From Nocardioidaceae bacterium (GTDB lineage: Bacteria; Actinomycetota; Actinomycetes; Propionibacteriales; Nocardioidaceae), in NCBI GenBank assembly GCA_030447865.1, contig JAUJOD010000004.1:1-64000 (forward strand): DNA of 64,000 nt, written 5' to 3'. Numbering within the stretch: position 1 is the stretch's first letter; the number at the start of each line of letters is the position of its first letter. The translations under genes and the position numbers were made by a program. The notes below the pieces were generated by a model, which was not told the DNA's origin, made no database searches, and saw only the letters and a program-made list of their open reading frames with translations. Shown here one piece after another: positions 7,193-64,000 of this stretch.

Positions 7193-7195
7193 CCC

Positions 7196-7684: not shown

Positions 7685-7689
7685 GCCAT

Positions 7690-46291: not shown

Positions 46292-47203
46292 ATGCCACGC
46301 CCATGCCGGATCGGTATCCAGTTGCCCGAAATCGAGCGTCGGGTCGACTGGCCAGAGCTGTTCTCGATGGCCCGCACGGCCGAGGCGGTCGGCTTTGACT
46401 CGCTGTGGCTTGGCGACCACCTGCTCCTCGACCGTCCCGGTGCCGCGCCGCGCGGACCGTGGGAGGTGTGGACCTCGCTCGCCGCGCTGGCCGCCGTGAC
46501 CGAGCGGGTCGAGCTCGGTCCACTGGTCGCATCGACGAACTTCCATGCGCCGGCGATGCTGGCCAAGCAGGCGGCGACGGTTGACGCCATCTCCGGCGGC
46601 CGGCTCATCGTCGGTCTCGGCGCGGGTTGGAACGAGCGGGAGTTCCGCGCCTTCGGCTTCCCATACGACCACCGGGTCTCCCGGTTCGAGGAGGCGTTCG
46701 CCATTATCCGGGGCCTGCTCCGAGACGGAAGCGTCGACTTCGACGGCCGGTACTACCACGTGGTCGACTGCGTGCTCGACCCGCCCACCGGGCGGCCCGG
46801 CGGCCCACCGTTGATGCTCGGCTCCGTCAGCCCCCGCATGCTTCGTATTGCACTGCCGCACGTGGACGCGTGGAACGTGTGGTTCAGCGACTACGGCAAC
46901 ACCCCCGAAGGATTTGCCCGCGTGTGTGACCGGGTCCACCGGGCGGCGGCCGGTGTCGGGCGGGCGCCGGAAGACGTCGCGGCGACCGCGGCGGCCTTCA
47001 TCCGCCTGCCTGGCGCGACCGGACGACCGGTGGTGGACCCCGGCCTTGCGTCGGTCGAGCCGGTCCGCGGGTCACCGGAGGACATCGCGGGCCACTGTGA
47101 CGCCATGGCCCGCGCGGGCGCCCGGCACCTGCAGCTCGTCGTGGACCCGATCAGCGAGACCTCGATCGAGTGGCTAGGCGAGTCGCTGGTCGCCCTCGGT
47201 TGA
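46292..47203 (+). CDS. LLM-family oxidoreductase, distinct subtype
   Basis: A 303-residue luciferase-like protein more distant from the other copies. CRIGIQLPEIERRVDWPELF starts it, followed by VGFDSLWLGDHLLLDRPG, VELGPLVASTNFHAPAMLAK, VDAISGGRLIVGLGAGWNER and RAFGFPYDHRVSRFEE. The GAGWNEREF motif is typical of F420-associated members. It precedes the carrier-protein operon and diverges from the amidinotransferase. In butirosin a flavin-dependent LLM enzyme, BtrO, hydroxylates the ACP-bound chain, so a similar role is possible. Confidence 0.75.
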   Translation: MPRPCRIGIQLPEIERRVDWPELFSMARTAEAVGFDSLWLGDHLLLDRPGAAPRGPWEVWTSLAALAAVTERVELGPLVASTNFHAPAMLAKQAATVDAISGGRLIVGLGAGWNEREFRAFGFPYDHRVSRFEEAFAIIRGLLRDGSVDFDGRYYHVVDCVLDPPTGRPGGPPLMLGSVSPRMLRIALPHVDAWNVWFSDYGNTPEGFARVCDRVHRAAAGVGRAPEDVAATAAAFIRLPGATGRPVVDPGLASVEPVRGSPEDIAGHCDAMARAGARHLQLVVDPISETSIEWLGESLVALG

Positions 47204-47215
47204 TCGCGCCGGACT

Positions 47216-47246
47216 GTATGGCCGGTGTAGCGGCACGGATCAGCGT
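47216..47246 (+). promoter_or_regulatory. SARP-type box for the carrier-protein operon
   Basis: GTA 47216-47218, N8, GTA 47227-47229, N11, CAGCGT 47241-47246. ATG 47254 lies 7 bases later, a probable leaderless start for an eight-gene operon. Confidence 0.6.
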
Positions 47247-47253
47247 TCGAACC

Positions 47254-48753: not shown

Positions 48754-49990
48754 GGCGGCCGGCGTCGACCTGGTCGAAACACCGGCCTATGTGTACTACC
48801 TGGACGAGTTGAGGGCCGCGCACGCGCGACTGCTCGCGGCCCTCCCCCAGCCGAGCACGCTGTTCTATTCACTCAAGGCCAACCCCCACCCGGCGATCGT
48901 CGGCACGCTGGGCCGGCTCGGCTGCTCGGCCGAGGTCAGTTCTCCCGGCGAGCTGGCGACCGCCCGAGCGGTCGGCATCGCGGCGGACCGGATTCTCGTC
49001 ACCGGCCCCGGCAAGCGGGACGCCGACGTTCGTGAGGCGGTCGAGGCCGGTGTCGACTGGTTCTCGGTCGACTCGCCGCACGGGCTGGACCAGGTCAACC
49101 GGATCGCGAACGCGGCCGGGCGTGACGCGCGGTGCCTGGTGCGCGTGAACGTGCCCGACGCCGTACCGGGTCAGGGTCTGGCGATGGCCGGCGGCGCCTC
49201 GCAGTTCGGCGCCGACGTGGAGTGGATAGCGGACCGTCCAGCCGATTTCCGCCGCGGACTCGCCGGACTCCATCTCTATCTGGGCACCAACCTGGCGTCC
49301 GAGCGGGACCTCCTGGCTCAGTTCGGCACGGCCATCGCCACGGCCGACCGGCTCACCGACGTGCTGGGCGTGCCACCCCAGCGACTCGACATCGGCGGCG
49401 GGTTCGGCGCGCCGTACGCCCGCACCGGCCCCGCCCCAGCCTTCGGGTCTCTGGCCGATGGCCTCGCCAACCTCCTCGACGCCCACTTCCCCGGCTGGAG
49501 GAACGGCCGGCCGAAGATCGCCTTCGAGTCTGGGCGCTACTTGGTGGCCACCAGCGGTGAGCTGCGCACCCGGGTGCTCGACGTCAAGGAGTCGTGCGGT
49601 CGGCCAGTGGTCGTGCTCGAGTCCGGGGTCAACCATCTGGGCGGCCTGTCCGGCCTGCGCCGGTTGCCGCTGATCGTCCCCGAACTGCAGCACGGGCGGG
49701 GCGACGGTGTGCTGCGGAACGCGATCATCACCGGACCGTTGTGTACTCCCGTCGATGCGTGGGCCCGGGGCGCCGACGCACCGGCCGTGCGCCCCGGTGA
49801 CGTCGTCCTCGTGTCCAATGTGGGCGCCTACGGGCTGTCCGCCAGTCTGCTGGCCTTTCTCGGCCACCCCGCGCCGCGCGAGGTCGTTGTCGATGGTGGC
49901 CGGATCGTCGATGTGACCCAGCTCGTGCTCGCGCGGCGGACCCCGCCCGGGGCTTGGTCGGATAGGGACGTGAACGACCATGAACGATGA
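48740..49990 (+). CDS. PLP-dependent decarboxylase, fold III (BtrK/VinO-like)
   Basis: A 416-residue enzyme of the ornithine/diaminopimelate decarboxylase family. PLP-binding Lys46 lies in STLFYSLKANPHPAIV; GLHLYLGTNL replaces the usual HxGS strand; RLDIGGGFGAPYA binds the PLP phosphate; and ITGPLCTPVD bears the catalytic Cys of the second protomer. It overlaps the ligase by 14 bases and the ACP start by 11, implying that it acts on aminoacyl-ACP, as BtrK does with glutamyl-ACP and VinO with methylaspartyl-ACP. Product would be an amine-ended acyl-ACP. Confidence 0.82.
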   Translation: MRSREAAGVDLVETPAYVYYLDELRAAHARLLAALPQPSTLFYSLKANPHPAIVGTLGRLGCSAEVSSPGELATARAVGIAADRILVTGPGKRDADVREAVEAGVDWFSVDSPHGLDQVNRIANAAGRDARCLVRVNVPDAVPGQGLAMAGGASQFGADVEWIADRPADFRRGLAGLHLYLGTNLASERDLLAQFGTAIATADRLTDVLGVPPQRLDIGGGFGAPYARTGPAPAFGSLADGLANLLDAHFPGWRNGRPKIAFESGRYLVATSGELRTRVLDVKESCGRPVVVLESGVNHLGGLSGLRRLPLIVPELQHGRGDGVLRNAIITGPLCTPVDAWARGADAPAVRPGDVVLVSNVGAYGLSASLLAFLGHPAPREVVVDGGRIVDVTQLVLARRTPPGAWSDRDVNDHER

Positions 49991-50237
49991 GTTCCTGTCG
50001 CTGCTGCGCCCGTTCCTCAGGTATGCCGGCGATCGGCCGATCCGGGCGGAGACGCCACTGCGCGATCTGGGCCTGGACTCGATGCGGACGATCGAGCTGC
50101 TGTTCGCGATCGAGGAGACCTACGAGGTCATCGTCCCCGATGGGATGCTGACCGACGCCACGTTTGAGACGACCGGCTCGCTCTGGGCCGCGCTCGAACA
50201 GCTGTGCGCCCCGACGCTCGACCGGAACGCCCGATGA
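49980..50237 (+). CDS. Acyl carrier protein
   Basis: An 85-residue carrier protein with the phosphopantetheine attachment Ser34 in LRDLGLDSMRTIELLFAIEE. It is wedged between the decarboxylase and an acyl-CoA-dehydrogenase-like gene and overlaps both, so it is almost certainly their shared carrier. The PPTase at 58.4 kb would activate it. It might also accept the dihydroxybenzoyl unit, since that operon has no carrier. Confidence 0.9.
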   Translation: MNDEFLSLLRPFLRYAGDRPIRAETPLRDLGLDSMRTIELLFAIEETYEVIVPDGMLTDATFETTGSLWAALEQLCAPTLDRNAR

Positions 50238-51388
50238 ACCGCCGGCTGACGGACGCGGTGGAGTCGGTCCGGTCCGCCGCCGAACGGCATGCGGACACGG
50301 GCGACCGCGCCGCAGAGTTTCCGGTGGAGGCAGTGTCCGCGATGCGGGCCACCGGCGTGCTGGGCTTGCCTGTGCCGACCGACCACGGCGGGCTGGGTGG
50401 CTCCGTGTCCGACGTCGTCGACGTCACGCTGGCCCTGGGCCGGGTTGACATGTCGGTCGCGATGATCTTTGGGATGCACTGCCAGCAGGTACTCGTCGTG
50501 GCCAAACACGGCGGGCAACGGCTGGTCGATCAGGTTTTGCCGGACATCGCCGCCGGCGAGGTGTACCTGGCCTCGGTGACGACCGAGCCGGGCACGGGCG
50601 GTCACCTGCTCACCAGTGACTCCACGACCACCCTGCTCGACGGTGGCGCGGTCCGGATCGACCGGGAGGCCCCGATCGTGACCGGCGGCCGCCACGCCGA
50701 CGCGTTCCTGGTCACCGTTCGCGCGCCCGACGCGCAGTCACCGGCGCAGGTGAGCCTCGTGTACGCCGCACGCGACCAGGTCCAGGCGGACGTCTGCGGC
50801 GGCTGGGATCCTCTCGGCATGCGGGCCACCGAGAGCGTGGCGATGCGCCTGACCGGCAGCGTCCCGGCCCACCAGGTGATCGGAGCGGACAGCTATCGCC
50901 GCATTGCGACGACGATGCTCGCGCCGGTGGCCCACATCGTCTGGTCCGCCGCCTGGCTGGGCACCGCCGTCGGTGCCTACGGTCGGGTCGTTCGGCATGT
51001 CCGCGACCCCGCCGGCCGCCGCCAGTTCGACCCCTCCTCCGACCTCCTGCTCCACCGGCTGGCGGCGACCAGGGCACGCCTGGACGTCGTACACGCGTTG
51101 CTGCGCCACACGGTTCGGGTGTTCGAGTCCGGGGTCGACGTGGCCGCGGGACCCGTGCAGATGCTGCTGAACACGCTTAAGACGCAGTCGGCCGACGACT
51201 GCTTCAGTGCCGCGCATGAGCTGGTCGAATTGACCGGCATGCGCCACGGCTACCTCCCCGACTCCTCACTGGGTCTGGAGCGTGCGTTCCGGGATCTCCG
51301 CTCGGCCTCGCTGAATTACGGCAACGACCGGCTGCGGCTTGCCAGCGGCGCGCTGGCGCTGATGGACGCTGGAGTCCACCTTGCCTGA
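50234..51388 (+). CDS. Acyl-CoA dehydrogenase-like enzyme, first of a pair
   Basis: A 384-residue flavoprotein-like member of the ACAD family. RATGVLGLPVPTDHGGLGGS opens the helical N-domain; YLASVTTEPGTGGHLLTSDS is the beta-domain segment that binds FAD; LELTGMRHG appears as LVELTGMRHGYLPDSSLGLE near the end, where the fold carries the FAD-contacting loop. The catalytic Glu could not be located with confidence. ATG 50234 overlaps the ACP stop (ATGA). It probably desaturates or oxidises the ACP-bound chain, as in aminomalonyl or hydroxylated extender pathways, perhaps as a heterodimer with the next protein. Confidence 0.75.
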   Translation: MNRRLTDAVESVRSAAERHADTGDRAAEFPVEAVSAMRATGVLGLPVPTDHGGLGGSVSDVVDVTLALGRVDMSVAMIFGMHCQQVLVVAKHGGQRLVDQVLPDIAAGEVYLASVTTEPGTGGHLLTSDSTTTLLDGGAVRIDREAPIVTGGRHADAFLVTVRAPDAQSPAQVSLVYAARDQVQADVCGGWDPLGMRATESVAMRLTGSVPAHQVIGADSYRRIATTMLAPVAHIVWSAAWLGTAVGAYGRVVRHVRDPAGRRQFDPSSDLLLHRLAATRARLDVVHALLRHTVRVFESGVDVAAGPVQMLLNTLKTQSADDCFSAAHELVELTGMRHGYLPDSSLGLERAFRDLRSASLNYGNDRLRLASGALALMDAGVHLA

Positions 51389-52484
51389 GCATGCGCCCTT
51401 GCGGGGTCTGGTGGCTGGCGCGGCCAACGGCGCCGAGGACGCCCGCTCGCTGTGGCGCGCCCTCGGCGAGGCGGGGGTCATCGAGCGTGTCGGGTGGACA
51501 TCCAAGGACCCCGACGACATCGCGCGCCTGGATGACCTATTGTCCGAACTGGACGGTCGGCTGCCCCTCGGACTGGTTCTCTCCGTGTGCGTGCAGGTCG
51601 CCCTCGCGGTGCCGCTGCTGGCGACCGCATCCGAAACGAGCGGGTTGGCCCGGGAGGTGCTGGCCGACGCTGTGGCGGGCCGGGCGGTCGTGGCGATCGC
51701 CGTCACGGAGGCCGGGCTGTCCGGTTCGGCCACCCTCGACGCCGCGACCGCCGTCCGCTCGGCCGACGGGTCGCTCCGCCTGACCGGAGGCAAGGAATGG
51801 ATCAGCAACGCCCGACACTGCGACCACGTGATGGTCCTCGCCCGCTGCCGCCCGGAGCGTCACATCACGAGCTTCTGTTGGGTCCTCATCCCGGCCGTCG
51901 CCCCCGGCGTGACGGTTGAGCCCGCGTCGAACCGGTACTTCGGCCAGGCCGGCGTGGGACATCTGCGCTTCGACGACGTGGCGCTGGCCGAGGATCGTGT
52001 CGTCGGCCAGCGCGGCCGGGCGCTAGCGGAGTTCGTCCGGGCCCTCCAGAGGGAGCGGCTGGCCGGCGCCCTGTGGGGCCGGGCGCTGTGTCGGAGGGTG
52101 CTCGTGGAGACCCTCGACCACCTGCGCCGGCGGCCGGCGGGCCCGACGACCCTCTGGGACAACGCCGCCATTCGCGATCGCTTCGCCCGGTGCCTGGTGG
52201 CGCAGGCCCGCTTGGACGCGCTGTGCTCGGTGTTCCCGGCCGGTTCGGCAGCACGTCCGGCGGCCGGTCCGGCGGCCATGGTGCTCAAGGCCGCGTGCGG
52301 TGAGACCGTCAATCGGATCCTCGACGAGTGCGTCGACCTCACCGGGGCCGACGCGTTCCGCGACGGCGGACTGGCCGGCCTGCGGGAGGAGGCGACGATG
52401 TTCGGCGTGGCCGGCGGTGCCACCGGGACGATGCTCGCCGGAATCGCCGAACACGCCGACGACCTGCTGCTGGTCGGGTCATGA
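51381..52484 (+). CDS. Acyl-CoA dehydrogenase-like enzyme, second of a pair
   Basis: A 367-residue ACAD homologue. VAIAVTEAGLSGSATLDAAT and LTGGKEWISNARHCDHVMVL are the FAD-binding and substrate-contacting strands; LQRERLAGALWGRAL begins the C-terminal helical domain. The TTG at 51381 is the only in-frame start that respects the GGAG at 51371-51374, and it overlaps the previous gene by 8 bases. It is shorter at the N-terminus than stand-alone ACADs, which favours a complex with its neighbour. Confidence 0.72.
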   Translation: MPEHAPLRGLVAGAANGAEDARSLWRALGEAGVIERVGWTSKDPDDIARLDDLLSELDGRLPLGLVLSVCVQVALAVPLLATASETSGLAREVLADAVAGRAVVAIAVTEAGLSGSATLDAATAVRSADGSLRLTGGKEWISNARHCDHVMVLARCRPERHITSFCWVLIPAVAPGVTVEPASNRYFGQAGVGHLRFDDVALAEDRVVGQRGRALAEFVRALQRERLAGALWGRALCRRVLVETLDHLRRRPAGPTTLWDNAAIRDRFARCLVAQARLDALCSVFPAGSAARPAAGPAAMVLKAACGETVNRILDECVDLTGADAFRDGGLAGLREEATMFGVAGGATGTMLAGIAEHADDLLLVGS

Positions 52485-53395
52485 TGGCCGCGCTCACCTG
52501 CTACACGACCGCCCTGCACGGCTACCTCGGGGTCGAGTGGGACGCCGACAGCATCATCGCGCGCTCGATCCGGCTCGCCGTGCGGGCCGACGAGCCGGAC
52601 GGGACGCTCGCGTTCTCGCATCATGATCCCCCGCTGGACCGACTGCCCGACGGGTCCACGCTGCGGTACGCTGGAGCGTCCAGCGCGACGGCCGCCCTGG
52701 ACGGCTTGCGCGAGGAGTGGGCCCGCCACCGACGGGCCGTCGTGGTCGTCGACCTGACACGGTTGGACTGGTCGGTGCGGCGTTCCGGGGACGCCCAGCC
52801 CCACTGGCTGCTGATCGACGGCCGGGTCGGCGGACGGTGGCACGTCGTCGACCGGTTCGCCGCCACGATGCCTGAGGGTGATCAGTACCCCTACGAGGGT
52901 TGGACGAGCGACGATCGGCTGACAGCGGCCATGAGGTTGCCCCGACGGTCTAGCCCCAGCCATCGGCTTCGCAACGCGCTCGCCTTCGGCGCTCCGGTTC
53001 CCGTGCCCTGCCAGAGCTGGCTCTGGCTCCGCCGCGGCAGCTCGGACGCGGCGACGGCGCCACCCGGTGACCGATGGTCCGATGATCCGGTTGAGGTCTT
53101 CGAGTTGTTGCGCACCTATGTGGAGGCCGGCCCGGAGCGCCTGGCCCGGGTGCAGGACGACCTGTGGGCCGCCGCGCGTCACCGGGCGTTCGCCTATCGC
53201 TGGTGGCTCGCCCGTCCCATCGACGACCGTCGCCGCGATGAGCTGCGGCGCGCCGTGGTCAGCTGGGAGTCGGTGCCACGAGCGGTCCGGTTCGCCGTGG
53301 AGTCGGCCCGGCGGGGCCGCTCGCGCCCCGCCCTAGTCGCCGCGGCACTGGACGCGGTGCGCCAGGCTGAGGGGAGGCTCGGGTGCTTGGTGTAG
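52481..53395 (+). CDS. BtrH-like cysteine acyltransferase, short form
   Basis: A 304-residue protein with the BtrH N-domain layout in compressed form. Cys7 sits in TCYTTALHGYLG, His108 in AQPHWLLIDGRVGG and Asp124 in WHVVDRF, the presumed triad. The C-terminal half is helical and Arg-rich. It overlaps the ACAD stop (ATGA) and the adenylation enzyme start, so it is made together with the ACP. Inference: it receives the chain from the ACP and passes it to an amine. It shares little sequence with the copy at 5.24 kb beyond the triad pattern, so a cysteine-peptidase-fold protein of other function is possible. Confidence 0.5.
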   Translation: MMAALTCYTTALHGYLGVEWDADSIIARSIRLAVRADEPDGTLAFSHHDPPLDRLPDGSTLRYAGASSATAALDGLREEWARHRRAVVVVDLTRLDWSVRRSGDAQPHWLLIDGRVGGRWHVVDRFAATMPEGDQYPYEGWTSDDRLTAAMRLPRRSSPSHRLRNALAFGAPVPVPCQSWLWLRRGSSDAATAPPGDRWSDDPVEVFELLRTYVEAGPERLARVQDDLWAAARHRAFAYRWWLARPIDDRRRDELRRAVVSWESVPRAVRFAVESARRGRSRPALVAAALDAVRQAEGRLGCLV

Positions 53396-54933
53396 GGTCC
53401 ACCGCTGACACGCTGTACGAACGGTTCGCGCGGACCGCGATCCGCTACCCGGACGTGCCGGCGCTTGAGGTCGACGGCGAGCGGTTGAGCTACGCACAGC
53501 TGAGCAACCTGGCCGAGGGGGTGTCGGCGGCGTTGCCCGCGGCCTGTGGGCCGGGATGGCGCGTCAGCGTGTACGGCGGACGGCACGCGGCGACGTACGC
53601 GGCCTATCTGGCCGTGCTCCGCCGCGGCGCCGCAGTGGTTCCGCTGCATCCGGGACTGCCGGCGGCGCGCGCGGCCGCGATCTGCCGGGCGGCCGGGGTG
53701 CGGGCGGTCATGGTCGATCCCGCGACGCCCGCGGACCCGGCCGTGGCCGCACTGCCGGACGTGGCCATCGTCCCCGCGGATGGTGACGCCTGTAATACCG
53801 CGGCGGCGACGACGCCTGCCGGGCCCGATGACCTCGCCTACGTCCTGTTCACTTCCGGATCGACGGGCCGCCCCAAGGGCGTTCCCATCCGACATCGCCA
53901 CGTGGCCCGCTACCTGTCGCACTGCGTGGACCGCTACTCGGTCGGTCCCGGCAGCCGGCTCTCGCAGGCCTTCGAGCTCAGCTTCGATCCCTCCGTACAT
54001 GACATGTTCGTGGCCTGGTCGGGCGGGGCGACCCTGATCGTGCCGTCCCAGCCGGAGCTGCTCACGGTCGCCCGCTTCGTGGCCGATCGGGGGATCACGC
54101 ACTGGTTCTCCACCCCATCAGTGATCTCCCTCGCCGACCGGCTGCGCGGTCTTGCGCCCGGGTCCATGCCGACACTGCGGTGGAGCCTGTTCGCCGGCGA
54201 ACAACTGACCCTGGCCCAGGCCCGGCTCTGGTCCGACGCGGCGCCGTCGTCGGCCGTCGAGAATCTCTACGGCCCCACGGAGTTGACCATCACCTGCCTT
54301 GGCTATCGGCTGCCGGACGCGTCTACGCCGTGGCCACGCACGGTTAACGGCACGGTCCCGATCGGCCGCCCGTACCCCCACGTCGAGGCCATCGTCCTGG
54401 GCGAGGACGGGACGCCAGCCGACGAGGGCGAGCTGTGTCTGCGCGGTCCCCAGCGCTTCGACGGTTACCTCGACGACGCGGACAACGACGGCCGGTTCCT
54501 CGGCGCGGGCGCCGCAGCGCCCCCGAACCGGCGACGGCCCGCCGCCGATGACTGGTACCGCACCGGCGACCGGGTGAGCCTGCAGGCCGGCGAGCTGGTC
54601 CATCTGGGACGGACGGACGACCAGGTGAAGGTGAACGGGTACCGGGTGGAGCTCAGCGAGATCGAGGGTGCTCTGCGGGATGCGCCGGGCGTACGGGACG
54701 CGGTCGTCGTCGCGGTCCCGTCGGATGCCGGGATACGGCTGCACGCGGCGTACACCGGCCACCCATGGGAGGCCGACACCCTGGCCGACTACCTGAGGAC
54801 GCGGCTGCCCGCATACATGGTGCCGGTCTCGTTCCGGCCGCTCGAGCGGGTGCCGGCCGGCGAGACGGGCAAGGTCGACCGGCGCCGGGTGCAGGATCTC
54901 TTCCGTCCGGTCGACGCGCACAGCCCGACGTGA
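53383..54933 (+). CDS. Stand-alone adenylation enzyme
   Basis: A 516-residue NRPS-type adenylation domain with no carrier attached. LAYVLFTSGSTGRPKGVPIR is A3, FELSFDPSVHDMFVAWSGGA covers A4 with its Asp, WSLFAGEQLTL precedes ENLYGPTELTITCLG (A5), DWYRTGDRVSL is A7, LGRTDDQVKVNGYRVELSEI is A8, and ETGKVDRRRVQ carries the A10 Lys. The FDPS Asp suggests an alpha-amino acid. It would load either the free ACP or the ACP fused to the BtrH-like protein that follows convergently. The truncated copy at 7.7-8.8 kb is its closest relative in the window. Confidence 0.85.
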   Translation: MLGVGSTADTLYERFARTAIRYPDVPALEVDGERLSYAQLSNLAEGVSAALPAACGPGWRVSVYGGRHAATYAAYLAVLRRGAAVVPLHPGLPAARAAAICRAAGVRAVMVDPATPADPAVAALPDVAIVPADGDACNTAAATTPAGPDDLAYVLFTSGSTGRPKGVPIRHRHVARYLSHCVDRYSVGPGSRLSQAFELSFDPSVHDMFVAWSGGATLIVPSQPELLTVARFVADRGITHWFSTPSVISLADRLRGLAPGSMPTLRWSLFAGEQLTLAQARLWSDAAPSSAVENLYGPTELTITCLGYRLPDASTPWPRTVNGTVPIGRPYPHVEAIVLGEDGTPADEGELCLRGPQRFDGYLDDADNDGRFLGAGAAAPPNRRRPAADDWYRTGDRVSLQAGELVHLGRTDDQVKVNGYRVELSEIEGALRDAPGVRDAVVVAVPSDAGIRLHAAYTGHPWEADTLADYLRTRLPAYMVPVSFRPLERVPAGETGKVDRRRVQDLFRPVDAHSPT

Positions 54934-55481
54934 AGAGCGACATGGCATCGTCCGTGACCGCCACCCGCACTGTGACACCGGCCAGATTACGCTCGGTCGC
55001 TCGTCGCTTCGCCACCGGCGTGACCGTGGTGACGTCGCGGGCCGACGGCGCTCCGGTGGGCATGACCGTCAACTCGTTCGCCACCGTGTCGCTGGAGCCG
55101 GCCACCGTCGTCGTTGCGGTACGCGTCGGCAGCCGGCTCGCCTGCGCCGTCCGGCGATCGGGCGTCTTCGCGATCACGGTGCTCGCCGCCGGCCAGACGG
55201 CCTGCGCACGCCGGTTCGCCGACCCGAAACGGCCGTTCGGGGCCGCGTGCTTTGCCGAGTTCGCCACGCACCCTGAGCCGTCCACCGGATGCCTCGTCCT
55301 CAGCGACGGGATCGCGTACTTCGCGTGCTCCGCCCACGCCGCTCACCGGTACGGTGACCACATAGTGCTGATCGGAGGGGTGACGGCGTGCGGGCCGCTG
55401 CGGGCCGCGCCGGCCCTGGCCTTCGCGGATGGAGTGTTCACCCACCTGGACACGGCCGCGTCGGACGATCCGGTCCGCTGA
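54930..55481 (+). CDS. Flavin reductase (NAD(P)H:FMN, BtrV-like)
   Basis: A 183-residue flavin-reductase-domain protein. FATGVTVVTSRADGAPVGMT and VNSFATVSLEPATVVVAV are the FMN-binding strands, and a His near HRYGDHIVLIGGVTACG ends the barrel. It provides reduced FMN for two-component monooxygenases, most likely one or more of the LLM proteins (compare BtrV with BtrO). GTG 54930 overlaps the adenylation stop (GTGA); ATG 54942 is the alternative start. It is the last gene of the carrier operon and ends 5 bases before the convergent BtrH-ACP gene. Confidence 0.85.
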   Translation: MKSDMASSVTATRTVTPARLRSVARRFATGVTVVTSRADGAPVGMTVNSFATVSLEPATVVVAVRVGSRLACAVRRSGVFAITVLAAGQTACARRFADPKRPFGAACFAEFATHPEPSTGCLVLSDGIAYFACSAHAAHRYGDHIVLIGGVTACGPLRAAPALAFADGVFTHLDTAASDDPVR

Positions 55482-55486
55482 GCGCC

Positions 55487-56668
55487 TCACGCTGACGCCG
55501 GCGACCCGCGGGCGAACGCGCGGCACAGGCCATCGATGTCGGTCAGCTCATCCGCGGCCACGTCGGACGGCAGCAGCACGCCGAGCGTGCGCTCGACCCG
55601 GTCGATCAGGCGGACGAGTTGGAACGAGTCGAAGCCCGACAGCGACCGCAGCGGCAGTTGGGGGTTGACGTCGCGGTCGTCGAGCCCGAGCGTGGCGCCG
55701 AGGGCTCCTCGTACGGCGGCGGCCAGGGCGGGATCCGGACCGCCGATCGACCGGTCCAGGCACTCCTGGGCGAAGCGGATGTCCGCCCGCAACTGCTCGG
55801 CGATGTCGTCGATGAGACCATTCTGGACGCTTCCCCCGCGCTCCAACCGCCGGAGCGCGAGGAAGCTGTGCGCGGCCAGCTGCTCCCAGGCGCCGGCCCG
55901 CTCGATCGCCGCGGCGGCCACGGGATGGTCCGGGCCCAGCCACGCGGTGTGGAGGCGCCGCTCCCGGCCCAGCAGCCAGACGTCCAGCACCAGACCCCTG
56001 ATCACCTCGGGGTCGACCAGGCGCTCGCGGCGCTCCGCGACGTAGCGCTCGACGCCGGGCGCCGCCGCGCGTGCCCGCTGTGCGTTGTCGGCGAGCGCGG
56101 CGGTGGTGTCCAGGGCCGGCGGGCCGTTATCGAGCTCGACCGACGCCACTAACGCGTTCTCACCCACCGCAGAACGCAGGGCACGAGCGCTCAACGCCCA
56201 GGCGCCGGGCCGGGCCGGGCCCCATGGGGTGTCGTTGTGGTAGGGGTCGACGACGAGAATGTCATCCACGCGCGACTCGACCAGGAAACCGTGGTCCATG
56301 TGACTACGACGGTGGTATGGCAGCCAGGGCAGCGCGAACGCATCGGCGACGACGTACACGGGTCCGGCCGCGCAGAGGCGGGCGAGGTCACACGGATCGT
56401 GACGCTGGCCGATCCGCAGCCCCAGCAGATCGCGGGCCTGGGCCAGCCGCTGCTCCGGGCCGGGCTGGACGCCGGTCGTCGCGTCGGCCTGCCGGCCCGG
56501 CATGCTCCAGCGCGAGCCGAGACGGAGGTGGGTTCCGCGGCCATGCGCGTCGTCGGCGATGAGCGCGAGCGTGGTCTGCAGGCAGTCCAGGGCATCTGCC
56601 CGGAGGCCAGCCAGTGCCGCGCACCACCGATGTCGATGGACCGGCCGCGGTCCGGCGTTGGCGGTCAC
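55487..56668 (-). CDS. BtrH-like acyltransferase fused to an acyl carrier protein
   Basis: A 393-residue two-domain protein. The N-terminal part has a BtrH-type triad: Cys29 in ADALDCLQTTL, His126 in SHMDHGFLV and Asp141 in ILVVDPYHND, with the buried strand GPVYVVADAFALPWLPYH between. The middle (residues 150-310) is helical. The C-terminal 80 residues form a carrier domain with Ser348 in LRSLSGFDSFQLVRLID. GTG 56668 has GGGAGG upstream and lies at the predicted transcription start. Such a fusion would let the enzyme keep its own acyl donor. I know of no described protein with this pairing, but could not search. Confidence 0.65.
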   Translation of the reverse strand: MTANAGPRPVHRHRWCAALAGLRADALDCLQTTLALIADDAHGRGTHLRLGSRWSMPGRQADATTGVQPGPEQRLAQARDLLGLRIGQRHDPCDLARLCAAGPVYVVADAFALPWLPYHRRSHMDHGFLVESRVDDILVVDPYHNDTPWGPARPGAWALSARALRSAVGENALVASVELDNGPPALDTTAALADNAQRARAAAPGVERYVAERRERLVDPEVIRGLVLDVWLLGRERRLHTAWLGPDHPVAAAAIERAGAWEQLAAHSFLALRRLERGGSVQNGLIDDIAEQLRADIRFAQECLDRSIGGPDPALAAAVRGALGATLGLDDRDVNPQLPLRSLSGFDSFQLVRLIDRVERTLGVLLPSDVAADELTDIDGLCRAFARGSPASA

Positions 56669-56675
56669 ACCGCCC

Positions 56676-56706
56676 AGCCTCCCGCGTACCCGTACAGGCG
56701 TCGTAC
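56676..56706 (-). promoter_or_regulatory. SARP-type box for the BtrH-ACP fusion gene
   Basis: Minus strand: GTA (56706-56704), N8, GTA (56695-56693), N11, GAGGCT (56681-56676), then GTG at 56668. Confidence 0.55.
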
Positions 56707-56747: not shown

Positions 56748-58370
56748 TTAATGCTTGGCCCGCAGGTGCAGCACGTCGTCACCGAGGACGAGAACCTCCA
56801 CGCCGAGCCGCAGGGCGCAGTCAACCGCGTGCGCGGCCGTCTCCACGAGCGGCTCGCCCGGCCCGTTGAAGGACGTGTTGATGAGCACCGGCGGGTGACC
56901 CGCCCGACCGAGGCCATCGAGCACGGCGCTGACGAAGTCCTCGTCGCCGGGGCGAAGACGCTGCGGTCGCGTCGTGTTGTCCACATGACGGACGGCGGGA
57001 ATCGCCTCGATTCCCCGGTCGGTGAGCGCTGCCGCACCGACCATGTATCGTTCCAGTTCTCCAGCGGACGACCACAGGTCAAGGTCGGCGTTGGTGACCG
57101 GGCCGAATGGCCGCCACGGCTCCCGACCCTTGAGGCGGTTCAGCCGGTCGCGCATCGCCGCCGTTACCGGTGAGGCTAGGAGCGACCGGTGGCACAGCGC
57201 CCGCGGGCCAACCTCGCTTCGCCCCCGGCACACTGCGACGATCTGCCCATCGGCGAGCAAGCCCGCCACGCGATCCACACTTAGCGCCTCCGTTGCCACC
57301 ACACGCGTCGAGTCCAGCCCGTCGGGTGCCGGGCCGGGTAGTCCTCCCGCGTAGGCGGAAAGTAACTGCCGTTCGCGCGGTGGTATCACTGACCAGGCCG
57401 CCCCGAGCGCCACGCCAGCATCGTGCGGCACCGGCGGCACATAGACCGGCCCGGCGAGCCGGCCGTTGGCCGCGCAGTTGAGACCGACACCGCCCGCAAT
57501 GCACAGGTCATCGAGGCCGGTTGCCTTGCGGGCCAGACCTGCGAGCCACGTGACGGCGGACTCGACGGTCGTCTGCGCCGCCCAGGCAACCCGAACCGCC
57601 ACCGGGTCGTTCGCAAGGCCGTCCGCCGATGTCGCGGCCTGGTCCACACCAGCGAATCGCACGATCTCCGCCCGCCACAGCTTCATCAGCTCGTGATAGT
57701 TGAGCATCGGGTCGGAGCCGAGGAGGGACACGAGATCTTCGTTGATGATGCTAATCCAGCCCGGGTCTGGGATATCAATGCCCCGGCCGTAGGCGGCGAG
57801 CCCCATCGTCTTGCCCGCAGCCAGAATGCCCAGGCCGAGCCAGTCACTGACGGCTTCGTAGAGGTAGCCGAGGCTGCACACGCGAGGCCAGCTCATCAGG
57901 CGAATCAATGGCTCACCGCGGCGGGCCCGAAAGATCGACACAGACTCGTCCTCGCCGTTTCCGTCGGTCACTAGGACGGCGGCCGCGTCGTATGGGCTCG
58001 CATAGAACACCGACGCAGCGTGGGCACGGTGGTGCGGGATGAAGTAGATGTCGGGATTGTGCGGGCCAACGAAGCCAAGTCCCGCGAGAAATTCGCGAGG
58101 TGTCTCGAACTCCCATCCAGGACCGTGCCGGGCCCGAACTCGCGGCTCGTCCCAGCCCACCGCCACGGCGTCAACGTCATGCGGGGCGATGCCACCAAGG
58201 TTCAGACAGTGCCGCACGGCGCGGGAAGGCATGGCCCGTGGGGCGTGGCGGACCCGGGTCAGACGTTCCTCCTCTATGGACGCGACGATGGCGCCTCGTC
58301 CGTCGATCAGGCAGGCACTGGGGTCGTGGGAGGCCGCCGTACCACAGTTGACCCCTACGACGTACGTCAC
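56748..58370 (-). CDS. O-carbamoyltransferase (TobZ/NodU/CmcH family)
   Basis: A 540-residue enzyme that makes carbamoyl-adenylate from carbamoyl phosphate and ATP and transfers it to a hydroxyl. The N-terminal Kae1-like domain has VVGVNCGTAASHDPSACLID, metal-binding HHRAHAASVFYASPYDAA and LVTDGNGEDES; the C-terminal YrdC-type domain has GRSEVGPRALCHRSLLASP and PPVLINTSFNGPGEPLVET. The acceptor is probably a cyclitol or sugar hydroxyl. The GTG start overlaps the PPTase stop (GTGA), making it the third gene of the Ino1 operon. Confidence 0.9.
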   Translation of the reverse strand: MTYVVGVNCGTAASHDPSACLIDGRGAIVASIEEERLTRVRHAPRAMPSRAVRHCLNLGGIAPHDVDAVAVGWDEPRVRARHGPGWEFETPREFLAGLGFVGPHNPDIYFIPHHRAHAASVFYASPYDAAAVLVTDGNGEDESVSIFRARRGEPLIRLMSWPRVCSLGYLYEAVSDWLGLGILAAGKTMGLAAYGRGIDIPDPGWISIINEDLVSLLGSDPMLNYHELMKLWRAEIVRFAGVDQAATSADGLANDPVAVRVAWAAQTTVESAVTWLAGLARKATGLDDLCIAGGVGLNCAANGRLAGPVYVPPVPHDAGVALGAAWSVIPPRERQLLSAYAGGLPGPAPDGLDSTRVVATEALSVDRVAGLLADGQIVAVCRGRSEVGPRALCHRSLLASPVTAAMRDRLNRLKGREPWRPFGPVTNADLDLWSSAGELERYMVGAAALTDRGIEAIPAVRHVDNTTRPQRLRPGDEDFVSAVLDGLGRAGHPPVLINTSFNGPGEPLVETAAHAVDCALRLGVEVLVLGDDVLHLRAKH

Positions 58371-59047
58371 AGCTCATCCACTGCGGCGACGAGGATAGGG
58401 CTGGCCGAGAGCACGGCGACGGCGGCAGCGTAACCGTCGGGGACCGTGAGATCGGACATGCTGGCGCGCAGGTTGGGGCGCGGGCCGTACCGCAGCAGCC
58501 CGGCCGGTTCGGCGGCCGGCGTGACGGTCAAATCGGACATCGGCGCCCGCAGGCCGTCCCCGGTGGCCTTGACCATCGCCTCCTTGCGAACCCAGTACCG
58601 GAAGAACTCGGCTGCACTGCGGGCCGCCTCGCCCGGTGCGAGCACGCGCTGGGCGAGGCCGGCCGGATCGATGTCGGCGCGCACGCGTTCGACATCGACA
58701 CCGACCGGTACGCCCTCGGTCAGGGCGAACAGAACCCGGTCGGCGGAGTGCGAGATCGATAGCGCCAGGCTGCATCCCGGCAGCGTCGGCCGGCCGTGCT
58801 GTCGTCCACAATGGTCGCAGGTCCGGTCTATGACGACCCGTTCGGGAGCGAAGCCGAGCCGACGCCCGACCGCCACCTTCGCCAGTACCGAGCCGAGGGT
58901 GAACCGAGTCCGGTCGGCCTCCCGCCGGAGCCCGGCGCGGCGCTTGCGTTCCGAGGCGCTGAGCAGGCGCACGTGTTCCGGCCGCTCCCGGCCGAGGTCG
59001 ACGGACCACACCTCGACCTCGACCTGGTGTACCTCAACGTCGATCAC
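58367..59047 (-). CDS. 4'-phosphopantetheinyl transferase (Sfp type)
   Basis: A 226-residue enzyme that arms carrier proteins with phosphopantetheine from CoA. SLALSISHSADRVLFAL, VPVGVDVERVRADID (Mg-binding Asp and Glu) and YWVRKEAMVKATGDGL (WxxKEA) are the family signatures. It should activate the free ACP and the BtrH-fused ACP. GTG 59047 overlaps the Ino1 stop (GTGA). An imperfect repeat of PMSDLTV near residues 180-206 gives two nearly identical short segments, an unusual local duplication. Confidence 0.88.
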   Translation of the reverse strand: MIDVEVHQVEVEVWSVDLGRERPEHVRLLSASERKRRAGLRREADRTRFTLGSVLAKVAVGRRLGFAPERVVIDRTCDHCGRQHGRPTLPGCSLALSISHSADRVLFALTEGVPVGVDVERVRADIDPAGLAQRVLAPGEAARSAAEFFRYWVRKEAMVKATGDGLRAPMSDLTVTPAAEPAGLLRYGPRPNLRASMSDLTVPDGYAAAVAVLSASPILVAAVDEL

Positions 59048-60228
59048 AGACCCGGCGGCCGATCGAGGGCGTTCGCCCACGCGGTGAGCATCCGGAACTG
59101 CGCCGCCAGGGAGTGTTCGGAAGTGCCTATCGGGTCCTTGAAGAAGAACGCCAGCTGGGTGATCGGGCCGCGCTGCCCGGCGGCATGCCCGGCCGCGACG
59201 AGGCGGGTCAGGTCGAGAACCAGCGGCGCCGCCAGCGTCGAGTCCACGCCGCACCAGGTCACCTGCATCGACATCCGCACGCCCAGAAAACCCTCGAACG
59301 AGACGTGGTCCCAGGCCGTCTTGTGGTCCCCGAGGTCCGGCACGTTGTCTATGTGCAGCGGCGCCTTCACATCCTCGCCGAGCAGCGACTGGAGCACGCT
59401 CGACTTGGAGGTGAGTTTGCTGCTGGCGATGTGCGGATCCTCCAGCGTGGCACCGTCGCCCCCGCCGAGCAGGTTGATGCCGGCCCACGACAACACGCGC
59501 AGCTGCCGTACCGCGAACATCGGGGCCAGGACCGTCCGTAGCAGGGTCTCGCCGGTCTTGCCGTCGGAGCCGGCGAACGGAACGCCCCGCCGCTGAGCCA
59601 GCGCAGTCAGCGCCGGCAGCCGGGCGCCGGTCGACGGGGTGAAGTCGACGAACGGGCAGCCGGCCTGGAATGCGGCATACGCTACGACCGAACTGGGTGG
59701 CAGGACGAGCCGGTCCGGCTGCGACAGGGCAGCCGCCATCGCGTCGGGGTCGCCGTGCTCGGGCTGGCCCGGGAACGGCGCCTCGGTCGAGGCGATGTTC
59801 ACGACGACCACGCGCTCCAGGCCGTGCCGGCTGCGGAAGTCGCCGATGTCAGACGCGAGCCGGTCCACGGCGTCCGCCTGCGTGCCCGGGTGAGTCGCCG
59901 GGTCGTACCCGGTCCGTACCTCCCGCTCGATGGCCGCGAGCCCGCGCCGTACCGGCGACAGCACCGGCCGTGGGATCACCCCGTTGTCGACGAGCATCTC
60001 GGCGCGCTTCTCCAGCGGCGTGCCGAGGATGTCGTGGCCACCGACCACGATCTCCGACCACGGGACCAGCGGGGCGCGGTCCAGCGCAGGGGAGTCGGTC
60101 ACGCAACCAGTGCTCGGCATCAGGTTGTCCCTCACCGCGAGCAGGCCGGTGATGGCAGTCGTCGCCACCGAGCCCCGCGCGCCGTTGAGCCAGAGCCCGA
60201 TGGGCGAGGCATGACTGCTAGCGGTCAC
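59044..60228 (-). CDS. ino1: myo-Inositol-1-phosphate synthase
   Basis: A 394-residue enzyme that cyclises glucose 6-phosphate to inositol phosphate with NAD. LWLNGARGSVATTAITGLLA is the dinucleotide loop, VVVNIASTEAPFPGQPEHGD the next block, VPFAGSDGKTGETLLRTVLA carries the catalytic Lys, and LGDHKTAWDHVSFEGFLGVR the second catalytic Lys. A dedicated copy in a cluster normally feeds a cyclitol pathway, as in hygromycin A. It heads an operon with PPTase and carbamoyltransferase. GTG 60228 has GAAGGGGA upstream. Confidence 0.88.
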   Translation of the reverse strand: MTASSHASPIGLWLNGARGSVATTAITGLLAVRDNLMPSTGCVTDSPALDRAPLVPWSEIVVGGHDILGTPLEKRAEMLVDNGVIPRPVLSPVRRGLAAIEREVRTGYDPATHPGTQADAVDRLASDIGDFRSRHGLERVVVVNIASTEAPFPGQPEHGDPDAMAAALSQPDRLVLPPSSVVAYAAFQAGCPFVDFTPSTGARLPALTALAQRRGVPFAGSDGKTGETLLRTVLAPMFAVRQLRVLSWAGINLLGGGDGATLEDPHIASSKLTSKSSVLQSLLGEDVKAPLHIDNVPDLGDHKTAWDHVSFEGFLGVRMSMQVTWCGVDSTLAAPLVLDLTRLVAAGHAAGQRGPITQLAFFFKDPIGTSEHSLAAQFRMLTAWANALDRPPGL

Positions 60229-60298: not shown

Positions 60299-60328
60299 GG
60301 CCGTACTGGCCGGCGCGTCGGCCACCGT

Positions 60329-60359
60329 GTACCGACGATGTACTCGGACCGGCGAGGGT
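60329..60359 (+). promoter_or_regulatory. SARP-type box for the condensation enzyme
   Basis: GTA 60329-60331, N8, GTA 60340-60342, N11, GAGGGT 60354-60359. The in-frame GTG at 60366 lies 6 bases later and decided the start of the gene. Confidence 0.55.
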
Positions 60360-60365
60360 CACCTC

Positions 60366-61823
60366 GTGTACTCGGGTGAACCGGCTGTGCTGGAGGGCAT
60401 GGTGGCGGATTCGCTGCCGCTGGCGCCCAGCCAGGAGGTCCATTGGGAGTCGATGTGCGCGACGTCGCCCGCGGATCCCGGGGCCTCCCGCATCATCGTC
60501 GGCGAGACACGGCGGGCCGACGGCCCGCTCGACCGTGACCTCCTCGACCAAGCCCTCGCCTGGGTGGTGCGCCGCCACGACGCCCTGCGCCTGACCTTCG
60601 AGACCGTGTCGCTCGACCCGAGGCTGCAGGTGCGGCCGGAGATGGCGCACGCTCTGGACTACGTCGACGTGTCCTCCGATGACGCCGGGACGGTTGGCCG
60701 GACGCTCTTTCTGCACAGCCGCCGCCCGTACGATCTCCCGAATGGTCCACTGTGGAGGGCCTTGCTCCTGCGCCTGAGTGACAACCGCCACCTGCTGCGG
60801 GTCGGGATGTCGCACCTCATCGCGGACGGGTACTCCACCGAGGTGTTCTTTACCGACCTGTTCCGCGCCTACGCGGCGCTGCGCGACCAAGGCCGGCCAA
60901 CCGGGCCGCGCGCGCCCACAGTGCCGGAGATCCACGCCGTGCAGCGTGCCACGTACCGGCCCGCCAGCGAGCGCCCGGAGTACTGGCGGCGCCTGATCCC
61001 CACGCACTCCTTTCCGCCCGCCTTCACGCTGTGCCCGGTCCCCGGTGAGATCGACTACTTGCATGACCGGCTCATCGAACTGAGTTTGTCGCAATCCACG
61101 GCCCGGGCGCTCGCGCGCACCGCGTGGCGGGTGCGGGCGACGCCCTTCGCCGCGCTGATGGCGGCGTACCACATCGTGCTCCAGGCGATGACCGGCAAAG
61201 GGCGCACCGTCGTGGCGACCGTGGCCCTCGGCCGGGATCGGGCCGCCGACCGGTTGGCCATCTTCCAGTACGCCGCCTACCCGTACGTCTCCATGGCCGC
61301 CAGCGACCACGACACCCTTGCCCAGGTCGTCGGCGCCACCGGGCAGGCCTTGTCGGACGCCCTGCGCCAGCGCGTGCCGTACGTCGGCCTGGCCCGCACC
61401 ATCAACCCGGACTTCGACCGGGTGCGGCCATGGCCGGCGGCCAACTTCATCGACGGGGGAATGTACTCGTGGGCGCCGGACGGGCGCGACATCCACCTGG
61501 ACGGGCTCACCGTGCGGCCGGTCGAGGTGGCGCCGGTTGCACCGCCCGGGTACGCGTCGGAGTTCACCAGCAGCTCGTTTCCGCAGGGCCACCCGCCGGC
61601 CTGGGTCGCCCACGCGGCACCAAGTTACGCGGTGAGCACCGACCGGCGACAGGTCATCGCGAGGTACAACGATCTGCTCGTCTCGACGTTGGAGGTGGAG
61701 GCGTTCTGCGAGGGCCTGCGATGGGTGGTGGAGCAGACCGCGCACCGATGTGGCCTGCCCCTCTCCGAAGCGCGGCGTTCTCTGATGTCGATACTCTCGG
61801 TCGGGCGGGACGGTGGACGGTGA
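60366..61823 (+). CDS. Stand-alone NRPS condensation-domain enzyme
   Basis: A 485-residue protein of the condensation/PapA acyltransferase fold. LPLAPSQEVHWESM is the C1-like start, LRLTFETVS and LWRALLLRLSD precede the active-site loop GMSHLIADGYSTEVFF, which reads SHxxxDG rather than HHxxxDG; the second, catalytic His is kept. ATPFAALMAAYHIVL and the late ANFIDGGMYSW follow the usual pattern. It would join an acyl thioester to an amine or hydroxyl. The start GTG 60366 fits a leaderless message; ATG 60399 is the alternative. Confidence 0.75.
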   Translation: MYSGEPAVLEGMVADSLPLAPSQEVHWESMCATSPADPGASRIIVGETRRADGPLDRDLLDQALAWVVRRHDALRLTFETVSLDPRLQVRPEMAHALDYVDVSSDDAGTVGRTLFLHSRRPYDLPNGPLWRALLLRLSDNRHLLRVGMSHLIADGYSTEVFFTDLFRAYAALRDQGRPTGPRAPTVPEIHAVQRATYRPASERPEYWRRLIPTHSFPPAFTLCPVPGEIDYLHDRLIELSLSQSTARALARTAWRVRATPFAALMAAYHIVLQAMTGKGRTVVATVALGRDRAADRLAIFQYAAYPYVSMAASDHDTLAQVVGATGQALSDALRQRVPYVGLARTINPDFDRVRPWPAANFIDGGMYSWAPDGRDIHLDGLTVRPVEVAPVAPPGYASEFTSSSFPQGHPPAWVAHAAPSYAVSTDRRQVIARYNDLLVSTLEVEAFCEGLRWVVEQTAHRCGLPLSEARRSLMSILSVGRDGGR

Positions 61824-62285: not shown

Positions 62286-63137
62286 CTACCGAGCGGCGGC
62301 GTAGGCCTGTCGGCCGCGAGGGCCGGCGGCGGCGCGCAGGAACCCCCGCTCGCCTCCGGCCGCCACGATGCATACCTTGCTGCCGAGCGATTGCGGCGCG
62401 ACGACCTGCACAGTGTGACCGCGGGCCTGCAGGTCGACGACTGCGGCGTCGTCATCCTCCGCCTCGACGACCACGAGACCGGGCCGGCTGGCCCGCGGCG
62501 TGAACGACGAGGGGAAGTGGTTGGCGTGGAAGGCGGTGGCCTCCGTCGCCCGCTGAAGGTCCAGACCGAACTCGATGACCCCGAGGAACGTCTCCAGCGT
62601 CCGCTGGTCCTGCCGGTCGCCGCTGGGGTTCCGAAGGCGAGATACGGTTCACCGTCCCGCAGCACCACCGTCGGGCTCAGCGTGGTGCGCGGACGCTTGC
62701 GAGGCGCCAGGGAGTTGGGATGGCGTCCACCAGCCACATCGTCTGCGCGCGCGTGCCGAGCTGGAAACCGAGGCCGGGTGTGACGTGCGAGCTTTTGAGC
62801 CAGCCCCCGCTCGGCACGGCGGACGCCAGGTTGCCGTGGCGGTCCACGACCGTGATGGTTGGTGCAGGTGTCGCCGGGTCGGGCCGTCGCCGCCAGCGCG
62901 ACGCTCGGGAGCCCGCTCTGCAACTCGACCATCCAGGTCTCGCCATCGTCGGCCGGGTCCGGCGGCGCCGGCCCGGGCATCCAGGGTGACCCGCCATCCG
63001 CCGAGCCCGGCCGCGGGCCGATCAGTGCCCGGCGTTGCTCCCTGCTCGAGAACCCGCATCCCGGGCACGGTGGCCAACCACTGGGTCGACGCGACCGCAC
63101 CGAACGTACCGGCGAGCTCCGGCCGGCTGACGGTCAC
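62286..63137 (-). pseudogene. Gamma-glutamyltransferase-like gene, internally deleted
   Basis: The N-terminus reads VSRPELAGTFGAVASTQWLA and MRVLEQG, the normal start of the family, from a GTG overlapping the upstream stop. Most of the heavy subunit is missing. ITVVDRHGNLASAVPSGGWL and TPGLGFQLGTRAQTMWLVD appear in another frame, then TTLSPTVVLRDGEPYLAFGT, and finally QARGHTVQVVAPQSLG, ending at 62286. At least two frameshifts and one large deletion are needed. LmbA-like proteins of this family cleave a C-C bond in 4-alkylproline pathways, which would suit the DOPA-type genes on the left arm. Confidence 0.65.
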
Positions 63138-64000
63138 GTTACCCTCCCGAGCACCGGCTGCCCAGGCAGGTGGGCCAGCGCCGCCTCGATCTGGTGGTCG
63201 GTGGCCTCGGCGTCGACCATGGTGCCGTCCATATAGGACTCGTAGGCGGCCATGTCGAGCAGCCCGTGCCCGCTGACGCCCACGAGGATCACCGGCCGGG
63301 ATCCGGAGCGTTCGGCCCGCCGCGCCTCGATGGTCGCGCCATGGATCGCGTAGGCACTCTCCGGGGCCGGCAGTATTCCCTCGCTCTTGGCGAACGCGAG
63401 GGAAGTGGCGAATACTTCGCGCTGTCCACAGGCCAATGCGTAAATGAGCTTGCGGTCGTACAGCGCGCTGATCAGCTTGGCGGTGGCATGATACCGGAGG
63501 CCGCCCGCGTGGACCTCGGGCGGCACGAACCTGTGCCCCAGCGTGTACATCTTCTGCAACGGTGTCAGGCCAGACGCGTCGGTGAAGTCGTAGGCGTACG
63601 TTCCGCGCGTCAACTTCGGGCACGCGGCCGGCTCGACCGAGACGCACCTCACCCGATCGTCGTCGCGCACCACGAACTCCAAGAACGGCAGCGCCAGACC
63701 GCCGAAATTGCTGCCACCACCGATGGCGCCGATGACGACGTCGGCCGAACAACCCACCTCGGCCAACTGTTCGCGGGCCTCCAAGCCGATGACGGTCTGG
63801 TGCAGGAGCGCATACGTTTCCCCGCTACCAGTGCAGAACCGGGTCTCCGGCTCCTGCGCGTCGGCGAACGCCTCAGCGAGCGCGACCGCGAGGCTGCCCG
63901 GATTCGTGTCGCCGCCTGCCCGACGGCCGGGGTCGGTGTGCCCGCTCGGGCTCGGCACCACCGTGGCGCCCAGCATCTCCATGATGGTCTTCCGGTACGG
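63134..64000 (-). CDS. TrpB2-like PLP enzyme, 5' end outside the window
   Basis: The visible 288 residues are the C-terminal part of a tryptophan-synthase-beta-like enzyme. YRKTIMEMLGATVVPSPSGH, GSGETYALLHQTVIGLEARE, VVIGAIGGGSNFGGLALPFL (PLP phosphate loop), PPEVHAGGLRYHATAKLISA and LVGVSGHGLLDMAAYE follow in order. The pattern fits the stand-alone TrpB2 group, which performs beta-replacement on serine-like amino acids. The catalytic Lys lies in the missing part. Its stop overlaps the GTG of the broken gamma-glutamyltransferase (GTGA). The reading frame is open to base 64000. Confidence 0.8.
   Translation of the reverse strand, partial: PYRKTIMEMLGATVVPSPSGHTDPGRRAGGDTNPGSLAVALAEAFADAQEPETRFCTGSGETYALLHQTVIGLEAREQLAEVGCSADVVIGAIGGGSNFGGLALPFLEFVVRDDDRVRCVSVEPAACPKLTRGTYAYDFTDASGLTPLQKMYTLGHRFVPPEVHAGGLRYHATAKLISALYDRKLIYALACGQREVFATSLAFAKSEGILPAPESAYAIHGATIEARRAERSGSRPVILVGVSGHGLLDMAAYESYMDGTMVDAEATDHQIEAALAHLPGQPVLGRVT

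Follow-up and report, generated by a model that had tools for sequence, protein, structure and literature searches.

A conserved fusion of a predicted papain-fold acyltransferase with a carrier domain in actinomycete gene clusters

We analyzed a stretch of 64,000 nucleotides (the window) from a Nocardioidaceae bacterium, contig JAUJOD010000004.1. Between positions 55487 and 56668 the plus strand is interrupted by stop codons, and the minus strand is open from a GTG at 56668 to a stop at 55487. The product of this gene, here called BtrH1-car, has 393 amino acids. We take the gene to be real because its codon-position GC is of the coding type (0.80/0.53/0.88) and the sequence GGGAGG lies 9 nt before the GTG. 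Its features are the following:

55487-56668 (minus): fused gene BtrH1-car, 393 aa, GTG start, stop codon 55487-55489 (translation; codon-position GC; ribosome-binding site)
56678-56683 (minus): GGGAGG, ribosome-binding-site-like, 9 nt 5' of the GTG (read from the sequence)
56129-56632 (minus): predicted papain-fold catalytic part, residues 13-180 (AlphaFold [AF2] model; PDB matches)
56582-56584 (minus): codon of Cys29, predicted nucleophile, N-terminus of helix 29-42 (invariant in 38/38; model)
56291-56293 (minus): codon of His126, within strand 125-132 (invariant in 38/38)
56246-56248 (minus): codon of Asp141, end of strand 137-141 (invariant in 38/38)
55745-56116 (minus): predicted helical second part of the transferase, residues 185-308 (model; conservation; CcbD, CtaG and AziU3 matches to residue 309)
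55490-55738 (minus): carrier domain "car", residues 311-393 (PF00550, E 1.3e-8; ACP structures, Z about 10-11.6)
55625-55627 (minus): codon of Ser348, predicted phosphopantetheine site (serine in 30/30 fused homologues)

The only Pfam domain in the window protein was PP-binding (PF00550; residues 318-384, E 1.3e-8, 35.4 bits, cut-off 20.8). In the car domain, F or L directly follows the attachment serine. The N-terminal half matched no Pfam or NCBIfam family, and NCBIfam gave no match to the window protein at all. Pfam found no condensation domain (PF00668) in the fusion protein, whose predicted fold is of the papain type instead; a true condensation-domain protein is encoded separately at 60327-61823.

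The neighboring genes that bear on the interpretation are the following:

47170-48753 (plus): VinN-like adenylation enzyme, predicted to charge the free ACP with Asp or a similar acid through the side-chain carboxyl (3wvn, E 1e-111)
48740-49990 (plus): BtrK-like PLP decarboxylase (2j66/7ru7 BtrK, E 9e-51; Pfam)
49980-50237 (plus): free ACP, acp (PF00550; tree group apart from the fused carrier)
50204-51388 (plus): ACAD1, acyl-CoA-dehydrogenase-like flavoprotein, dehydrogenase or monooxygenase (structure and family matches)
51381-52484 (plus): ACAD2, acyl-CoA-dehydrogenase-like flavoprotein (Pfam)
52481-53395 (plus): BtrH2, unfused enzyme of the same superfamily, C7/H108/D124 invariant (hhalign to the fused family; model; CcbD match)
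53383-54933 (plus): A2, free-standing adenylation enzyme for amino acids that may load the fused carrier (TIGR01733 above cut-off; order BtrH1-A'-car in L056-L058)
54951-55481 (plus): flavin reductase, between A2 and the fusion gene (PF01613)
56748-58370 (minus): carbamoyltransferase, upstream in the same minus-strand gene run (annotation)
58367-59047 (minus): 4'-phosphopantetheinyl transferase (PPTase), overlapping the carbamoyltransferase gene (PF01648)

The PPTase gene lies two genes upstream of the fusion gene in the same run, and a gene resembling myo-inositol-1-phosphate synthase (MIPS-like; 59044-60228, minus) overlaps it. Since the run of overlapping MIPS-like, PPTase and carbamoyltransferase genes continues into the fusion gene, the PPTase is probably co-expressed with the fused carrier.

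Other genes of the region were also recorded. Pieces 53-64% identical to A2 lie in different frames at 7697-8773 (minus), as if from a decayed second copy or assembly frameshifts. The region 41487-43790 (minus) encodes a protein of 767 aa with no Pfam match; its start (WWMWRDALLLSTGFPVSGL) recalls, in our judgment, lantibiotic-dehydratase-like or PEARL proteins. A chorismate-binding enzyme and a DAHP synthase (28156-29568 and 33484-34581, plus) suggest a supply of aromatic acid to the same or a neighboring cluster. A TrpB-like PLP enzyme (63134-64000, minus) continues across the window edge into L083, where a sulfotransferase (6742-7749) and a ppb-like carrier (7753-8112) are encoded.

An AlphaFold model of the window protein was built with an alignment of 38 proteins and had a mean pLDDT of 93.1 and a pTM of 0.85. 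Cys29 is at the start of a helix, and His126 and Asp141 are on consecutive strands. Foldseek returned five matches with E under 0.001, all of them to CtaG or AziU3. With VIA-align, residues 13-309 matched AziU3 (Z 20.0), CtaG (Z 19.4) and CcbD (Z 18.7) over 270-277 residues at 3.2-3.4 Å. Among structures from outside this group, none fitted the papain part better than Z 11.0 (133 residues). Residues 310-393 matched carrier proteins (Z about 10-11.6). The traits of the CcbD/CtaG/AziU3 fold group, namely a papain part plus a helical part (about 290 residues) and a Cys-His-Asp/Glu triad, are present in the model. The first 150 residues, which the original prediction had taken as the enzyme domain, were dropped as a candidate for the whole enzyme: the structural matches extend to residue 309, and the modeled catalytic unit has ~300 residues, made up of the papain-fold part and the helical part.

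The original prediction had called the enzyme BtrH-like. The structural match of the N-terminal half to this superfamily bears the name out, and two divergent relatives of the window protein, L058 (34.1 bits) and L056 (29.7 bits), reach the Pfam profile BtrH_N (PF14399; cut-off 29.7). L052 matches it weakly, and the window protein does not match it up to E 1. When the fused family was compared by hhalign with 14 BtrH_N proteins, the two aligned with an E of 1.6e-5 and a probability of 79%, with Cys and His in register. The literature places BtrH_N among the papain-like enzymes (PMC10318531). Because only relatives reach the profile and the family profiles align, the name is right at the level of the superfamily; the window protein itself is outside Pfam BtrH_N, and its closest characterized relatives are CcbD, CtaG and AziU3. 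When PDB sequences were searched with the family profile (hmmsearch), each of the best 60 of 108 rows owed its match to the carrier region, and none of these linked the N-domain to CcbD, CtaG or AziU3. Profiles of BtrH2 and BtrH_N found no clear relative among PDB chains.

The fold alone leaves the reaction unsettled, because AziU3, the top match within a tie, is an enzyme of another kind: AziU3/U2 of the azinomycin pathway has been described as an aziridine synthase that acts by sulfate displacement (PMC12559475). A similar role, in which the window protein would cyclize a substrate on its own carrier with no acyl transfer, agrees with this match and with the sulfotransferase gene beyond the window edge. 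We consider it very improbable: CtaG and CcbD are nearly tied with AziU3, some 13 kb separate the sulfotransferase gene from the fusion gene, and no such gene is annotated beside the Streptomyces fusions L012-L014.

A search of genome contigs with the single window protein as the query found no relatives. The first homologues came from three Streptomyces plasmid records and two genomes of the same class, and their alignment, used as the query, revealed 45 loci in public actinomycete genomes. The carrier was in the same reading frame in 35 of them and was split off in nine; the remaining contig ended too early. This database search for the same fusion shows that it is conserved in at least 35 loci and is no oddity of the source genome. 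The nearest relative, from Kibdelosporangium persicum (L052), is fused and 49% identical. In the three plasmid records examined, the fusion was labeled "acyl carrier protein" or "hypothetical protein." The literature searched, a partial coverage of the field, yielded no description of the fusion or of its split forms.

C29, H126 and D141 were invariant in all 38 aligned homologues, and each of the 30 with a carrier domain has the serine. The arrangement first proposed, an acyltransferase with Cys29, His126 and Asp141 followed by a carrier domain with Ser348, was exact to the residue number. Other invariant columns among the 38 proteins include D28, Y143, W231, R235, W261 and R274; the residues conserved in the helical part are W231, R235, W261, R273, R274 and R277. 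A degenerate or chance fusion with no joint function, as the lone PP-binding match in Pfam might suggest, is refuted in practice. The invariant triad and serine, the recurrence of the fusion in 35 of the 45 loci, a dedicated group of carriers and conserved neighbors all show more than chance.

The split loci were informative about the carrier. Eight of the nine encode, within the sequence available, a separate protein of the same carrier type (car), and the ninth contig stops just past the gene. A tree built from 87 carriers showed three kinds: the free ACP (acp), a ppb type and car. Free and fused car carriers form one group (SH-aLRT 95, in a tree with few columns and many unresolved forks). 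The tree of the catalytic part indicates about four changes between fused and split forms, of which the starred branches force at least three, and with a midpoint root the split loci L056-L058 are basal. In these three loci the genes for the transferase, an adenylation enzyme and the carrier are closely packed in that order, which is the C-A-T order of an NRPS module. In L031, L034, L035 and L037 the free car gene is in line with ACAD1 and A2. Since the split loci keep the car type and show these gene orders, car is very probably the dedicated partner of the papain-fold transferase. The linker from the last helix to the carrier has about 5-15 residues in half of the members, and up to 34 in some.

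The genes at 47170-51388 resemble known routes to acyl thioesters. In the VinN-like enzyme, D230, K330 and R331 of VinN are conserved and S299 is a Thr (residue numbers assume an offset of 16, deduced from the chain). The VinN-like enzyme, the BtrK-like decarboxylase and the free ACP together predict a β-alanyl-type ACP thioester. ACAD1 resembles DnmZ and DszC no less closely than it does dehydrogenases; for this reason, and because a flavin reductase gene is present, the ACAD-type proteins could alternatively be flavin monooxygenases. The same set of a VinN-like loader, a BtrK/VinO-like decarboxylase, a free ACP and an ACAD occurs in the bolagladin (BolO, BolC, BolN, BolQ) and vicenistatin (VinN, VinO, VinL, VinM) pathways. 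For bolagladin, BolO, BolN, BolC and BolQ are proposed to convert aspartate to a dehydro-β-alanyl thioester (PMC7756342), and the match of the VinN-like, BtrK-like and ACAD genes to this set is one of the points in favor of our reading of the fusion as an amide synthase. In the parts of the bolagladin and vicenistatin accounts available to us, transfer is by VinK or other enzymes, and no fusion of a papain-fold transferase with a carrier is described.

The original prediction had pointed to a stand-alone adenylation enzyme encoded convergently with the fusion. The enzyme (A2) exists on the opposite strand; the flavin reductase gene intervenes between the two. The gene order in L056-L058 supports the pairing of A2 with the fused carrier. 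The pocket motifs of A2 are strongly conserved across the loci, so one amino acid is likely to be shared by them. The best solved relative of A2 is 8k4r (named "Non-ribosomal peptide synthetase"), which we take to be VinM, and A2 is about equally close to LgrA and ordinary NRPS adenylation domains. In S. californicus-type loci (L012, 18176-18736 and 29406-30665; L014, L036, L048 and L051), EctA-like and EctB-like genes stand in place of the TrpB-like and GSALDH genes, a hint at the use of 2,4-diaminobutyrate in this branch.

The vicenistatin pathway opens with VinN, VinO and VinL, and its VinK moves a dipeptide between carriers (PMC11284099). The window protein might likewise only carry the finished acyl or aminoacyl group over from the free ACP to the fused-carrier thiol, without forming an amide, and A2 would then, like VinM, aminoacylate the β-amino group while it is bound to the free ACP. 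Counterparts of VinN, VinO/BtrK and the ACP are encoded in the cluster, no VinK-like gene is among the annotated neighbors, and 8k4r is the best solved relative of A2. Such a shuttle is nevertheless unlikely: the characterized acyl transfer in this fold, that of CcbD, is amide formation, and besides its similar closeness to LgrA domains, A2 has a counterpart that adjoins the carrier in L056-L058.

BtrH2 has no carrier domain. It is homologous to the fused family over its whole length (hhalign, E 2.4e-15), and the kinship is visible by profile comparison only, as BLAST of the fusion against BtrH2 gave nothing. Its model (pLDDT 93.9) matched CcbD with a Z of 18.8 over 263 residues. The BtrH2 family alone compared with BtrH_N gave an E of 0.049 (hhalign) and no convincing alignment. 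The BtrH2 gene adjoins the GSALDH and ppb carrier genes in L056, L058 and L059, and neither BtrH2 nor the ppb carrier was found in loci such as L024, L028, L029, L033, L038-L040, L042 and L046. Because the two adjoin in the former loci and are jointly missing from the latter, one enzyme per carrier is suggested: the fusion with car, and BtrH2 with ppb. In L038, L040, L042 and L046, among others, a single papain-type enzyme was found together with two carriers, acp and car.

To our knowledge, the papain-fold amide synthases CcbD, CtaG and BtrH have been studied as single proteins that meet their carriers in solution. BtrH works with BtrI as the acyl carrier and has a soluble amine, an aminoglycoside, as its acceptor; CcbD works with the carrier domain of CcbZ. 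Like the window protein, BtrH has a Cys-His-Asp triad, and a BtrK homologue is encoded nearby in the window as well. It is described as a papain-fold acyltransferase that acts on an ACP-bound acyl group (PMC10318531); it differs in being a separate protein with an aminoglycoside acceptor. CcbD and LmbD (lincosamide) share with the window protein the two-part fold of ~270 residues, a Cys-His-acid triad and, as we propose, carrier-dependent amide formation. In CcbD, carrier-tethered proline is loaded on the Cys and the amide is then formed, in a ping-pong reaction with the cognate carrier as the donor (PMC12945683). Unlike the window protein, CcbD and LmbD are separate from their carriers, which are on CcbZ and LmbN, have Glu as the third residue and use a soluble amino sugar as the acceptor; no sequence-profile match between them and the window family is among the best 60 of 108 rows. 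CtaG (closthioamide) has the same fold and a Cys-His-Asp triad (C11, H128 and D144 variants, from PDB titles). Its pathway is NRPS-independent and based on β-alanine, and CtaG is proposed to transfer 4-hydroxybenzoyl from the carrier CtaH to the amine of tri-β-alanine on the carrier CtaE (PMC6772006). It differs from the window protein in being unfused, with CtaE and CtaH as separate carriers, and in being clostridial, with 12-13% identity.

Two roles of the fused carrier have to be weighed. In the model of the original prediction, the main rival to ours, the donor is in cis: A2 would load the phosphopantetheine of Ser348, and Cys29 would pass the group from its own carrier to a soluble or carrier-bound amine. 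The ping-pong reaction of CcbD, with its cognate carrier as the donor, speaks for this model, as do the A2-like enzyme that adjoins the carrier in L056-L058 and lies near it, with ACAD1, in L031, L034, L035 and L037, and the short linkers of half of the members, which suit delivery in cis. Some linkers are long, and where a single papain-type enzyme occurs with both acp and car, an enzyme must link the groups on these two carriers, unless the one on acp is used elsewhere. We regard a donor in cis as somewhat less likely than an acceptor in cis.

Our best explanation, which we hold tentatively, is that the protein belongs to the CcbD/CtaG/AziU3/BtrH superfamily, acts as a carrier-dependent amide synthase and is joined to its dedicated carrier, forming a condensation-carrier unit without a condensation domain in which its own carrier would be the acceptor. 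The group loaded on the fused carrier is somewhat more likely to be the acceptor than the donor because of the carrier-to-carrier precedent of CtaG, the C-A-T order in L056-L058 and the loci that have a single papain-type enzyme and two carriers. Against the acceptor role counts that CcbD and BtrH transfer to a soluble amine and that the cognate carrier of CcbD is the donor. Three more points count against this explanation: A2 might aminoacylate the ACP-bound β-amino group directly, AziU3 makes aziridines, and the family's sequence profile links the N-domain to none of CcbD, CtaG and AziU3 among the best 60 of 108 PDB rows.

The gene, domains, predicted fold, triad and serine, conservation of the fusion, split forms and neighbors were computed, and from them we infer the chemistry, the direction of transfer and the substrates, as follows. 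The PPTase would arm Ser348 and the free ACP with phosphopantetheine. The VinN-like enzyme would attach Asp or a similar acid to the free ACP through its side-chain carboxyl, the BtrK-like enzyme would strip the α-carboxyl, and the ACAD-type flavoproteins may oxidize the β-aminoacyl group. A2 would put an amino acid on the phosphopantetheine of Ser348. Cys29, activated by His126 and Asp141, would form a thioester with the acyl group delivered by the free ACP and then acylate the amine of the amino acid bound to the fused carrier. The resulting dipeptidyl thioester would go to the next enzyme, that is, BtrH2 and the third carrier, where present.

Both the enzyme type and the carrier are of known kinds; no account of their conserved fusion or of its split forms turned up in the literature searched. 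The fusion may be a self-contained NRPS-like elongation module, in which a papain-fold amide synthase replaces the condensation domain and is joined to the acceptor carrier, with adenylation in trans. If so, dozens of uncharacterized actinomycete clusters would have another way of making amide bonds between carrier-bound units. The conserved fusion and its split forms name the cognate carrier of one family of papain-fold enzymes. The fusion is also a compact system for studying the choice of donor and acceptor in papain-fold amide synthases, and a handle for the genome mining of clusters that are easily missed given current annotations.
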